Source: a virus. Taken from it: 22,615 nucleotides of DNA. This document shows positions 12,826-16,286 of the stretch, piece by piece. Both the position numbers and the translations under genes were made by a program. Each line of letters opens with the position of its first letter. The stretch's first letter is position 1. The stretch is from positions 1-22,615 of IMG/VR virus record IMGVR_UViG_3300035145_001929. One strand, written 5' to 3'. Under the pieces are notes generated by a model. The model was not told the DNA's origin, ran no database searches, and was given only the letters and a program-made list of their open reading frames with translations.

Positions 12826-13470
12826 ATGTACAACCAAGAAAACCTATCCTTATTCCCAACACTTGTAAGTGCTTTTGATTTAAGCGGTCATTCTGAAATA
12901 GAAAAATGTATTGATATCATAGAAAACTATGAGAATGTAGGTGACCACGGTTTAATTGCAAATGGCAAAAGCAGTTTCTTGCAAGGCGATGAAGAATTTT
13001 TATTTCATCCAGACCTTAAAAAATTAAGAACAGATATTCAAAATTGTATAGATTTATACTGCAAAGAAGCAGGACTTGAAGAAAGTATTTTAGGTACAAG
13101 TTGGTTCAATGTAATTGGTGAAGGTGGACAAGTAGATAAGCATAGACACGAAGGCAGTGTAGTAAGTGGTGCTTTCTATCCATATGTTGATGAAAACAGT
13201 TGTCCATTAATATTTGAATCTCCATTACGTCCATTAAGAATGAATGATGTATTTGAAGACCAAAATCCTTATAGCAGTTATTATGCAAGTTGCAGACCAA
13301 GAAATGGTTTGGTATTAATTTTTCCGAGTTGGTTAGAACATAGAACAGATCCAAACGAAACCAAAAAAAGAATTACAGTTAGTTTCAATACTATGCGTAA
13401 GAAATTGATTCCTTTAGTAGCCGCAAAAATGCACCATTATGGTCATTTACCGGTTGACAAAGAAAAATAA
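12826..13470 (+). CDS. 2OG-Fe(II) oxygenase
   Basis: This 214-residue enzyme belongs to the putative phage 2OG-Fe(II) oxygenase family (2OG-FeII_Oxy_5 type), which hydroxylates an unknown substrate using 2-oxoglutarate, O2 and iron. Diagnostic parts are N-terminal FPTLVSAFDL, the iron site around His106/His108/Glu109 (DKHRHEGSVVSGAFYP), the P-L-I-F-E-S-P strand, the distal iron ligand His172 in FPSWLEHRTDPN, and Arg182 in KKRITVSFN for binding 2-oxoglutarate. It starts 4 nt after the previous stop with no Shine-Dalgarno. A TTGACA at 12792-12797 with TAAAAT at 12814-12819 might serve it. The gene at 206 looks like a dead paralogue. Confidence 0.88.
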   Translation: MYNQENLSLFPTLVSAFDLSGHSEIEKCIDIIENYENVGDHGLIANGKSSFLQGDEEFLFHPDLKKLRTDIQNCIDLYCKEAGLEESILGTSWFNVIGEGGQVDKHRHEGSVVSGAFYPYVDENSCPLIFESPLRPLRMNDVFEDQNPYSSYYASCRPRNGLVLIFPSWLEHRTDPNETKKRITVSFNTMRKKLIPLVAAKMHHYGHLPVDKEK

Positions 13471-13482
13471 TTAAAGTATAAT
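13454..13482 (+). promoter_or_regulatory. Perfect-consensus sigma70 promoter before queD-like gene
   Basis: TTGACA (13454-13459), 17 nt, TATAAT (13477-13482). The -35 lies inside the end of the oxygenase gene. The -10 forms half of a perfect 12-bp palindrome, GTATAATTATAC, at 13476-13487, which could be an operator. Confidence 0.88.
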
Positions 13483-13488
13483 TATACA

Positions 13489-13549
13489 ATGTTTAAAGGT
13501 CTTAGCGTCAACCCTTCTAATTCTGCCGCTGTTTTGATAGGAGAAAAAT
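13489..13549 (+). ncRNA. Structured queD leader, preQ1-I riboswitch-like (candidate)
   Basis: The predicted 61-nt leader contains AAAGGTCTTAGCGTCAACCCTT (13495-13516). This has the shape of a class I preQ1 aptamer: AAGG pairing with CCTT, a U after the first arm, a loop with TTAG, and an extra C preceded by CAA before the second arm. The loop AGCG can pair with CGCT at 13527-13530 to give an H-type pseudoknot. The Shine-Dalgarno AGGAGA follows at 13539-13544. Against it, the 3' tail is not A-rich as in known preQ1-I RNAs. The gene downstream belongs to the queuosine-precursor enzyme family, which is why the match is worth noting. Confidence 0.3.
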
Positions 13550-13999
13550 ATGGCAAAACATTATAGTACAAAACATTACGGACACAACATTGGGTTGAGT
13601 GCAGTATTTAGACAACCAAATGCAGATCATTCACACTGTCATCTGCTTCATGGATATAGTCTTGCATTTACATTTACTTTTGGTTGTGATAAACTTGATA
13701 ACAAAAACTGGGCAGTAGACTTTGGTGGATTGAAACCACTTAAGGCTTGGCTTGAAGATATGTTTGATCACAAACTTTGTTTGGATATTAATGATCCACA
13801 CGTTGATAAATTTAGAGAGTTGCAGGAATTAGATCTTGCAGAACTAAGATTCTTTGATGGTGTAGGCGCAGAAAAGTTTGCCGAACACGCCTTTAAATTT
13901 GCAGACAAACTTATTAGAGAACAAACAGACAATCGTTGTTATGTTGTTAAAGTTGAGTGTGCAGAGCACGGAGCCAATTCAGCAATCTACGAGGGATAA
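13550..13999 (+). CDS. queD: 6-pyruvoyl-tetrahydropterin / 6-carboxy-tetrahydropterin synthase-like (QueD family)
   Basis: Members of this family convert 7,8-dihydroneopterin triphosphate to pterin products; QueD works in the pathway to preQ0/preQ1. The 149-residue protein has the zinc and active-site region HSHCHLLHGYSLAF (residues 27-40), VDFGGLKPLKAWLEDMFDHKL (56-75, with His74) and a C-terminal VECAEHGANSAIYE carrying the conserved Glu and His. The classical HGH zinc motif is HGY here, and an HSHC segment precedes it. I recall this variant from a bacterial and phage subfamily, so its exact product is uncertain. AGGAGA lies 5 nt before the ATG. It overlaps no gene but abuts the glycosyltransferase start. 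Other que genes are not in the window. Confidence 0.85.
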   Translation: MAKHYSTKHYGHNIGLSAVFRQPNADHSHCHLLHGYSLAFTFTFGCDKLDNKNWAVDFGGLKPLKAWLEDMFDHKLCLDINDPHVDKFRELQELDLAELRFFDGVGAEKFAEHAFKFADKLIREQTDNRCYVVKVECAEHGANSAIYEG

Positions 14000-14698
14000 A
14001 TGAAAAACTTTGTTGTCTGCCTTAAATGGGGTGACAAGTATAATTCAGATTATGTTAACACTCTTAAAAATATGGTTGACAGGAATACTACTGTTGACTA
14101 TGAATTTGTTTGCTTTACCGATAACGGCAATGGCATCGATCCTGGTATAAGAGTTTTACCTTTACCTAAACTGCCAATTCAAGGTTGGTGGTACAAACCT
14201 TGGTTCTTTAGTCCTGATCTACCTATTAATGGCAATATTTTGTATTTTGATCTTGACGTAATTATTTTTAAAAACATAGATCATCTTTGGACGTATGAAC
14301 CTGATAGGTTTGTGATCTGTCGTGACTTCAATAGGCACCTTAGACCAGACTGGAAGAAAATGAATTCAAGTGTATGGAGATTAAAATCTGGTACTAACCA
14401 TCATGTTTGGGAAGATTTCAAAGATCAAAACTTTATGGCAAAGAATCGTATGCACGGAGATCAAGATTGGATCTATAGTAAAATTACAAAAGACTTTTGT
14501 TTTTGGCCAGATGAATGGATACAAAGTTATAAATGGGAAATGCGTGGCAAACCAGAAATGACAAGAATTAATGGTGTAAGAAACTTTGCTATCCCAGGAG
14601 AACCAAAAATTAAAGACCAAACCAGTGTAGCAGTGTTCCATGGAGAACCACATCCGCATAATTGCGTAGATCCGTGGTGCAAGGAAAACTGGTATTGA
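14000..14698 (+). CDS. Glycosyltransferase with DxD motif
   Basis: This 232-residue protein looks like a GT-A fold glycosyltransferase of the GT8-like kind common in phages. An N-terminal strand (KNFVVCLKWG) is followed by YEFVCFTD, then ILYFDLDVIIF with the metal-binding DxD at Asp84/Asp86. Later motifs are MHGDQDWIYSKI (the conserved DQ of acceptor-side loops) and a C-terminal VAVFHGEPHPH with the last metal-binding His. The start codon immediately follows the queD stop, so the two are co-translated. The acceptor could be glucosylated or glycosylated DNA, protein or surface sugar; the sequence does not say. Confidence 0.82.
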   Translation: MKNFVVCLKWGDKYNSDYVNTLKNMVDRNTTVDYEFVCFTDNGNGIDPGIRVLPLPKLPIQGWWYKPWFFSPDLPINGNILYFDLDVIIFKNIDHLWTYEPDRFVICRDFNRHLRPDWKKMNSSVWRLKSGTNHHVWEDFKDQNFMAKNRMHGDQDWIYSKITKDFCFWPDEWIQSYKWEMRGKPEMTRINGVRNFAIPGEPKIKDQTSVAVFHGEPHPHNCVDPWCKENWY

Positions 14699-14728: not shown

Positions 14729-15757
14729 ATGACTAAACGTATTGGCTTTGCTTGTAAATTTATGCACACCGATCAGACCCTTAAGAAAAAACTTCTTGAG
14801 GAGATAGAACGTCCATTGAATAATAGATGTACAACAGTTGCATGGTTGAATAGACAAACACGTGAAGTTGCTGAACAACGCCTGTGGGATCTTATGGTAC
14901 ACAATATCAAGGCGTTTGAAAATCTTATAGAGTATGTAGGAGGATTACCGAATGAACTTAGAATGGTTAGGTTGGGAAGTGACGTCTTACCTGTTTATAC
15001 TGAGCCTACTTGGTCTTACTTCTGGCGCAAGCCTGATGTACGACAATATTGTGAGAAGCACTTCGCTCACGTCGGCGCAACGGCTCGTGAACTTGATGTT
15101 AGGTTGTCTATGCACCCTGGTCAGTTTACTGTACTTGCGTCAGATAATCCTGATATTGTAAATAGAAGTATAGAGGAGTTTGAATATCATGTGGATATCG
15201 CAAGGTGGATGGGATACGGTAGACAATTCCAAGATTTTAAGATCAATGTACACATCGCAGGCCGCCAAGGTCCAGCCGGTATCATCAACGTACTCCCAAG
15301 ATTATCTGAAGAGGCGAGAAAAACTATTACAATTGAAAATGACGAAATGTCCTGGGGCATTGACGCCAGTTTGGAACTTGCCGAACACGTCGCACTCGTT
15401 CTTGACATACACCATCACTGGGTCAATAGTGGAGAATACATTTACCCCACCGACGATAGATTTACTCGCATAGTAGATAGTTGGCGTGGTGTAAGACCTG
15501 TTATACACTATTCTGTATCACGTGAAGATGTTCTTGTAGACTTTGATGCTAACAAAAAACCTACAATGGATTCACTGCTGGTTGAAGGTTACAAGAAACA
15601 AAAACTCAGAGCCCATAGTGATTATATGTGGAACAATGCAGTAAATGACTGGGCATTGACATTCTGGGACTATGCAGATATTATGGTAGAGTCTAAGGCA
15701 AAGAATTTAGCCAGCCATAAACTGCATAAATACTACTATGAGAATCAAAGAACTTAA
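14729..15757 (+). CDS. uvsE: UV-damage endonuclease
   Basis: This 342-residue TIM-barrel nuclease incises DNA 5' of UV photoproducts using a metal cluster. Family motifs are visible in order: RIGFACK at the N-terminus, VRLSMHPGQFTVLAS (His129), INVHIAGRQG (His175), ITIENDEMSWG (Glu203), VLDIHHHWVN (Asp226/His229), VIHYSVSRED (His260) and LRAHSDYMW (His297). All are typical metal or active-site positions of UvsE/UvdE. Length matches the bacterial family. The gene starts directly at the expected transcription start of a consensus promoter. It overlaps the start of sodC by 20 bases, and its last part also contains two sodC promoters. Repair of sunlight damage in surface water is the likely role. 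Confidence 0.93.
   Translation: MTKRIGFACKFMHTDQTLKKKLLEEIERPLNNRCTTVAWLNRQTREVAEQRLWDLMVHNIKAFENLIEYVGGLPNELRMVRLGSDVLPVYTEPTWSYFWRKPDVRQYCEKHFAHVGATARELDVRLSMHPGQFTVLASDNPDIVNRSIEEFEYHVDIARWMGYGRQFQDFKINVHIAGRQGPAGIINVLPRLSEEARKTITIENDEMSWGIDASLELAEHVALVLDIHHHWVNSGEYIYPTDDRFTRIVDSWRGVRPVIHYSVSREDVLVDFDANKKPTMDSLLVEGYKKQKLRAHSDYMWNNAVNDWALTFWDYADIMVESKAKNLASHKLHKYYYENQRT
15656..15684 (+). promoter_or_regulatory. Sigma70-like promoter inside uvsE, ahead of sodC
   Basis: TTGACA (15656-15661), 17 nt, TATTAT (15679-15684). The expected start near 15691 gives a leader of about 47 nt to the sodC ATG. It lies within coding sequence, so chance is not excluded. Confidence 0.5.
15726..15732 (+). promoter_or_regulatory. 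Late-promoter-like ATAAATA box for sodC, leaderless geometry
   Basis: ATAAATA is followed by CTACT and the ATG at 15738, the same 5-nt spacing as at 6161 and 17033. No Shine-Dalgarno precedes the ATG. Confidence 0.6.
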
Positions 15758-16286
15758 AAGTTGTGAAAGAACTCGTTCTAAAGTTTGTCAGTGCGAAAGC
15801 ATAACAAGATTACAAGAGTCAGAACAACCGGTTATAGCAGTGTGTGATCTAATCCATTCTGATACGGTTAAAGGGACTGTTCTGTTTATGCAAAAGCCAG
15901 GCACTGCTACTCTTATAAAGGGTAGAATAACTGGTTTAACAGAAGGAAAACATGGGTTTCACATTCACGAATACGGTGATCTATCCCAAGGATGTGAAAG
16001 TGCTGGCGCACATTATAACCCGGACGGGGTAGAGCATGGTGATCTCGAAAACGGCCATGTTGGTGATCTTGGTAACGTAGAAGCAGACTCAAACGGGATT
16101 GCGGAGTTTACAATCAAAGCAGAAAGAATTACTTTGATTGGCGAAAGAAGCGTTATTGGAAGAGCGATAGTGATTCACGAAAATGAAGATGACTTAGGAA
16201 AAGGCGGAGATGCAGAGTCATTAAAAACCGGAAACGCAGGTGATAGACTCGCTTGTGGAGTAATTACACTCACAAAAGGAGAATAA
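15738..16286 (+). CDS. sodC: Cu/Zn superoxide dismutase with N-terminal extension
   Basis: This enzyme dismutates superoxide to O2 and H2O2. All ligands are present: copper/zinc residues His75 and His77 (HGFHIHEYG), bridging His92 (GAHYNP), His100, His107, Asp110 (GHVGDLGNV) and His147 (VIHENEDD). The disulphide pair is Cys86/Cys173 and the active-site Arg is Arg170 (GDRLACGVI). The enzyme should therefore be active. About 30 extra residues precede the fold and hold Cys9, Cys17 and Cys19. No signal peptide is visible, whereas bacterial SodC is normally exported. It may act in the cytoplasm of the infected cell or be packaged in the virion, as shown for the chlorovirus enzyme. It overlaps uvsE and is followed at once by the 77-aa gene. 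Confidence 0.93.
   Translation: MRIKELKSCERTRSKVCQCESITRLQESEQPVIAVCDLIHSDTVKGTVLFMQKPGTATLIKGRITGLTEGKHGFHIHEYGDLSQGCESAGAHYNPDGVEHGDLENGHVGDLGNVEADSNGIAEFTIKAERITLIGERSVIGRAIVIHENEDDLGKGGDAESLKTGNAGDRLACGVITLTKGE

Follow-up and report, generated by a model that had tools for sequence, protein, structure and literature searches.

The closest described systems are the preQ1-I riboswitches, types I–III, which according to the published account carry a C, preceded by U or A, directly before the 3' arm of the first helix (P1), have a G-C pair as floor, and hold their ligand at the helix junction (PMC11625349). In the E. coli aptamer a change from U to C at the ligand-reading U is reported to cost about 35,000-fold (PMC10622847). 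Riboswitches carried by phages are described as glutamine riboswitches plus one putative case at psbA (PMC9004378), and among open-licence PMC papers no description of a queD leader RNA of phages was found. The leader of a QueD-like gene described here is considered to be a cis-regulatory RNA specific to phages, which has a preQ1-I-like architecture and most likely acts as a translational riboswitch, and the probability of this reading is put at roughly 60%.

The leader element occupies positions 13495–13534 of the window, i.e., the whole stretch of 22,615 nucleotides of viral DNA that was analysed, and lies between a promoter and the Shine-Dalgarno (SD) sequence of the QueD-like gene; the full feature spans the promoter through codon 2 of this gene, and all parts are on the plus strand. 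The promoter (13454–13482) is TTGACA-17-TATAAT with 12/12 matches to the sigma-70-type consensus, and from its position the transcript should begin shortly 5' of P1. Because shuffled sequences yield as many promoter-like sites as the region itself (2.6 vs 2), the support for it comes from the perfect score and from its repetition in relatives. The original prediction had proposed the layout of a class I preQ1 aptamer, and the letters that it named are all present: AAGG (13496–13499) faces CCUU (13513–13516) as P1, a T follows the 5' arm at 13500, an extra C stands at 13512 after CAA, and AGCG (13504–13507) faces CGCU (13527–13530) as the loop-tail helix P2, 5' of the SD AGGAG (13539–13543). 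The connecting loops are L1 (13500–13503), L2 with the letters UCAAC (13508–13512), and L3 with CUAAUUCUGC (13517–13526). The gene itself (13550–13999, ATG at 13550) encodes a QueD-like/PTPS protein of 149 aa.

Relatives were taken as the best 80 of at least 596 IMG/VR loci found via the window QueD protein. The element was present 5' of queD in 69/80 of these loci and, together with the window, gave 45 distinct sequences, in which 88.0% of the P1 and P2 cells were paired compared to 65.8% (sd 1.5) in shuffled and 40.7–60.2% in slid versions. Changes on both sides were seen for 9/10 pairs, and the covariation score was 0.562 vs 0.174 for shuffled alignments and at most 0.190 for slid ones. P1, a stem of 4–5 bp, occurs as AAGG/CCUU, GAGG/CCUC, GCGG/CCGC, UCGG/CCGA, GUGG/CCAC, CCGG/CCGG, and GUCG/CGAC; although kinship among the sequences inflates counts of pair changes, these seven paired forms require repeated compensation. 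The covariation of both helices, strongly positive in the homologous leaders, shows P1 and P2 to form an H-type pseudoknot, and comparison of sequences confirms that the observation was real and that the window leader is one member of a phage RNA family.

On its own the window sequence would fit a chance resemblance in an ordinary leader, since it folds no better than shuffles (RNA fold z-score +0.44, with 140/200 shuffles folding equally well). Such a resemblance is ruled out by the covariation of P1 and P2 and by the linkage to QueD-like genes in relatives, which leaves it a negligible probability. An ATG just 5' of P1 in the window opens a frame through the element and could point to a conserved upstream reading frame or leader peptide. 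This is highly improbable and refuted as a general explanation: the distance from P1 to the conserved tail box is spread over the three frames (22, 12, and 11 of the 45 leaders, which thus have no frame in common), stops are found in every frame (15, 15, and 26 rows), and the helices covary by pairing.

Conservation extends to the unpaired bases. Beyond the P1 5' arm, positions two and three are C and U in 45/45 leaders, so that L1 reads N-C-U followed by a variable spacer, and the first base is A in 27, T in 14, and C in 4. L2, with the consensus UCAWC, begins with U and C and ends with C in 45/45, the base before this final C being A in 23, U in 21, and C in 1; the final C corresponds to the one that pairs with the ligand in preQ1-I. 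L3 ends in a tail box, A-Y-U-C-Y-G-C, immediately before P2, in which A, U, C, and G are invariant (45/45) and the last base, behind the invariant G, is C in 44/45; as the regular expression that picked the loci required [ACT]C[TC], a C ahead of the second P1 arm, and TC[TC]G[CT], part of the invariance at these positions reflects that selection. The 11/80 loci that failed the expression were judged by eye: nine are without the element, L060 is cut off, and L064 carries a divergent form (17.9 bits). It had been remarked at the outset that the window tail lacks A-richness, and this proves to be common ground in the relatives, which carry AYUCYGC next to P2 instead. In an a-b-a'-b' pseudoknot the NCU, UCAWC, and AYUCYGC stretches would be expected to meet at the P1-P2 junction. 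As a description that includes loci from the pattern scans, 111 distinct aptamers were counted and L1 measures 4–10 nt in relatives.

Three RNA-pattern scans used RNA letters only and no protein information; the loci that they return fix the pattern letters and were used for gene linkage, platform counts, and descriptive aptamer counts, and some contigs are present in more than one locus set. Among the 80 matches listed for the first scan were 31 strong model matches, all followed by a QueD-like ORF (31/31), while the other 49 lacked a strong model match and are chance matches to the pattern. The second scan repeated 17 of its 80 listed matches from the first; the remainder plus MAG contig L232 contained 64 strong model matches, and 58/64 of these had QueD within 250 nt. 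Of the six others, L259 carries two QueD-like genes in a row, the leading one coding for a QueD-type protein with the HGH motif and the next for a QueD of the phage subfamily, and in L258 a methyltransferase-like ORF comes first, with QueD 749 nt further on. The contigs L232 and L255 end too soon after the element to show a gene, L287 has another gene that is not QueD, and L265, whose start is broken, runs out after 91 nt. A scan for type B leaders gave 80 loci of 87 stretches, 80/80 with QueD. The element is thereby shown, as a matter of genomic neighbourhood, to be tied to QueD-like genes.

Whole records lead to the same view. Of 18 records of up to 356 kb, 15 contained a strong site, located directly 5' of the PTPS gene in those records that were also scanned for PTPS, and the next-best model matches came near E 0.002. 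There were 16 strong sites in all, one per record in 14/15 and two in L045 (= G029), and a general phage operator acting on many genes is therefore ruled out. The second copy in L045 (2134–2178) is perfect and precedes a 236-aa ORF with a sub-threshold methyltransferase match; in L148 a degenerate copy of the leader (8–53) likewise precedes a methyltransferase-like ORF. The copies before methyltransferase-like ORFs in L045, L258, and L148 may mark the same regulon.

The near-exclusive linkage to queD would also fit autogenous control, in which the leader is a protein-binding operator, bound by QueD itself or by a phage translational repressor. Phages use such operators, and gp32 binds a pseudoknot operator in T4. 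An operator is nevertheless improbable here, as the RNA core stays constant while the protein falls to 36–44% identity and changes subfamily, as the element also precedes methyltransferase-like genes (L045, L258), and as base conservation centres on the junction, the site of small-molecule pockets. Overall, the leader is kept before QueD-like proteins that are only 36–50% identical to that of the window.

The element is not needed for queD, since 9/80 queD loci (L006, L012, L014, L015, L050, L058, L067, L072, and L074) are without it and since in five named phage isolates that encode QueD relatives the leader is short or missing and the model finds no match. What separates the loci L006 and L007, whose promoters and gene starts nearly coincide, is a single block of about 45 nt, the element itself. 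Six of the nine leader-less loci (L006, L012, L014, L015, L072, and L074) start with TTG, compared with ATG in the leader-bearing ones shown; these six probably represent one lineage. The weak TTG start may stand in for the lost switch.

Outside phages the element is all but absent from what was scanned. A specific pattern run over 84,980 genomes returned only two contigs, L231, which has no model match, and L232, a contig end with phage-like genes that by eye resemble those of the window, and a bacterial origin is ruled out on this basis. When the L062 and window leaders were compared at the nucleotide level with 50,697 phage records, only short, non-significant matches came up. The candidate riboswitch is most likely phage-specific.

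That the downstream gene belongs to the queuosine-precursor enzyme family was borne out at the level of QueD-like proteins: the window protein scores 50.5 bits with PF01242, i.e., the wider PTPS family (cut-off 22.4), and 137.5 bits with phrog_2389, and it stays below the cut-off of the QueD equivalog TIGR03367 (33.8 bits, cut-off 89.25). QueD has His and C-x3-HGH. The window protein reads SAVFRQ... and C-x3-HGY, and given the different motif and the score below the TIGR03367 cut-off its zinc binding or activity may differ. In 16 long records, which may be fragments so that gene counts should be read accordingly, PTPS was found in 16, FolE in 8, QueE in 9, and QueC weakly in 3, and TGT in 0/16; with TGT lacking and QueC at 3/16, a full pathway for 7-deazaguanine insertion in these phages is ruled out. 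The presence of FolE, QueE, and PTPS suggests that conversion of GTP in the direction of CDG is within reach of many of these phages, in line with the pathway as described (PMC10622847). Elsewhere in the window a UV endonuclease UvdE (PF03851) is followed by an overlapping Cu/Zn superoxide dismutase (PF00080) at 14729–16286, an iron-sulphur cluster carrier (PF01521; 17045–17368) lies directly 5' of an open-ended ORF of 1746 aa (17378 to the window end), and a tRNA-Arg with anticodon gcg is found at 1537–1613.

In relatives, the P2 3' strand is extended by an arm whose letters complement the SD or the start codon, an observation made partly by eye. Examples of arm and start are CCAUUAUU/AAUAAUGG in L019, GUCAUUGUU/AACAAUGGC in L036, AAGUCAUC/GAUGACUU in L160, and GCCAUUG/CAAUGGC in L051, and CCUAUG/CAUAGG occurs in many leaders. 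When each distinct arm was represented by a single leader (n = 49), self duplexes averaged -7.30 kcal/mol, compared to a mean of -4.72 (sd 0.26) and a best value of -5.60 kcal/mol in 5000 permutations, the duplex tool picking the best of many pairings in each case. Individual leaders are less distinct: the non-self mean was -5.49, and 16/133 selfs beat 95% of the non-selfs while 123 beat the median, the low number being due to the AUGG/SD letters that all starts share. With GG/CC in common, some of the pairing at the start is to be expected anyway. Against shuffled arms 79/133 leaders passed the 5% level; L133, L265, and L287 were left out of the arm test because they have no recognised SD and ATG. 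Several type B leaders and the window (-4.0) have weak arm pairing, from -1.2 to -4.0. Among 132 distinct leaders, 126 have a base of the P2 3' strand paired in the start-region helix, 123 combine a P2 base with the SD or start there, and in 113 the helix reaches -6 kcal/mol.

In the window the equivalent hairpin, GCCG.UGUUUU/AAAAUAUGGC (13525–13554), has the SD in its loop and the start codon paired, takes the P2 3' strand as part of its 5' side and so excludes P2; it is predicted at -7.6 kcal/mol, vs -4.3 for P2 alone. The co-evolution of its equivalents in relatives shows that P2 of the pseudoknot and a predicted closed start site compete, a second layer that had gone unnoticed in the original prediction. 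The leader combines conserved structure with a competing expression platform, as riboswitches do. There is no terminator-like site at 13300–14050 of the window, which rules out transcription attenuation.

The likeness to preQ1-I has to be taken feature by feature. What stood of the proposed layout, in the 45 leaders, is the H-type pseudoknot of P1 and the loop-tail P2, the specificity C that immediately precedes the P1 3' arm (45/45), and the G-C pair as pocket floor (45/45). What did not stand is the U directly after the P1 5' arm (U6), which is present in 14/45 and is no feature of the family, and membership of RF00522; nor is there an A-rich L3 with a ligand-reading A adjoining P2. Two bases further on, the invariant U might replace U6. 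RF00522 gave no match at the window motif (E ≤ 10), and in 21 records of relatives it gave none over the cut-off and a single match at the motif, in L062, of 10.4 bits (cut-off 39). This silence does not decide the matter, because at the same E ≤ 10 the model also misses the validated type III leader of yhhQ in an E. coli record, used as control and carrying the type III linker GGUUAAUC as published (PMC10622847). Model R1 gave the E. coli yhhQ leader 1.8 bits. No other family explains the leader either: none of 4227 Rfam models, including preQ1-II, preQ1-III, SAM-II, and THF, was over its cut-off at the motif in the window, 10 relatives, and L062. The matches at E ≤ 10 were far below threshold, namely SNORD97 (minus strand) and Mu-gpT-DE in the window, and freshwater-2 and Thr_leader in L062.

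It is conceivable, if rather unlikely, that the leader is a divergent preQ1-I riboswitch, a fourth subtype with preQ1 or preQ0 as its ligand and repression of queD as the outcome. The helix order, the invariant C after A or U, and the invariant G-C floor are those of types I–III as described (PMC11625349), L2 with UCA(W)C resembles the UCAC reported for the E. coli type III leader (PMC10622847), QueD is an enzyme of the preQ0/preQ1 pathway, and RF00522 says little when it misses a type III leader too. Set against this, a U at the ligand edge is found in 14/45 only, when U-to-C at that place is what is reported to be so costly in E. coli (PMC10622847), L3 is not A-rich, P2 is made without the SD, and RF00522 is silent in the window with its one weak motif match in the relatives. 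The putative pocket letters speak against plain preQ1 recognition.

For the proposed translational riboswitch a simple mode of action can be envisaged. A small molecule at the P1-P2 junction would stabilise P2, which would free the start region and turn queD translation on, whereas without ligand the start hairpin would close. As P2 and the closed start are mutually exclusive, anything that stabilised the pseudoknot would be expected to open the start, and from this we infer that the pseudoknot state is ON. A pseudoknot about 20 nt before the start could instead hinder the ribosome, which would reverse the direction. The ligand is expected to be guanine-faced, because the position from which preQ1-I pairs with the guanine-like face of its ligand is occupied by a C, and by analogy it is probably a pathway metabolite of this kind, i.e., a pterin (QueD substrate or product), CDG, preQ0, or preQ1. 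The element is probably a new variant and possibly a new class. More specifically, and tentatively, it may be a phage-confined riboswitch class, either without common descent with the bacterial preQ1 aptamers or re-specialised from them, that senses an early intermediate, namely a pterin or CDG, and turns on synthesis of the phage QueD-like protein by drawing the anti-start strand into the pseudoknot.

If so, a class encountered almost exclusively in phages, generally in a single copy per record and beside a single enzyme family, would show that phages evolve metabolite sensors of their own for auxiliary metabolism or DNA hypermodification. It would also be a natural test of how an H-type pseudoknot changes its specificity, with the floor and the pairing C kept and the reading bases replaced. 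More than 100 natural variants (the 111 distinct aptamers) and the pair L007/L006, with and without the element, make it directly testable.

Among known RNAs, freshwater-2 (RF02980) matches weakly over the L062 leader, mostly in the SD region (16.4 bits, cut-off 49.9), and its model consists of two hairpins and no matching pseudoknot, whereas the phage element is a pseudoknot. The glutamine (glnA-type) riboswitches of marine phages such as Melnitz and Mosig are likewise riboswitch-like phage RNAs, but as presented they belong to another class and another gene and resemble glnA motifs of marine bacteria (PMC9004378). With preQ1-I types I–III, in the published description, the phage element has in common an H-type pseudoknot of about 35–45 nt in the leader of a queuosine-pathway gene, a P1 with a G-C floor, and, immediately ahead of the P1 3' arm, a C that follows A or U; it differs in that U6 is not conserved, in the tail box AYUCYGC in place of an A-rich L3, in a longer and variable L1, in a P2 that is not made with the SD, and in the extra start-codon hairpin that competes with P2 (PMC11625349). 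The E. coli yhhQ type III aptamer shares an L2 that ends in UCAC before the P1 3' arm, while only in yhhQ is the SD reported to be part of P2 and to touch the ligand there; translational control is established for yhhQ and predicted for the phage element (PMC10622847).
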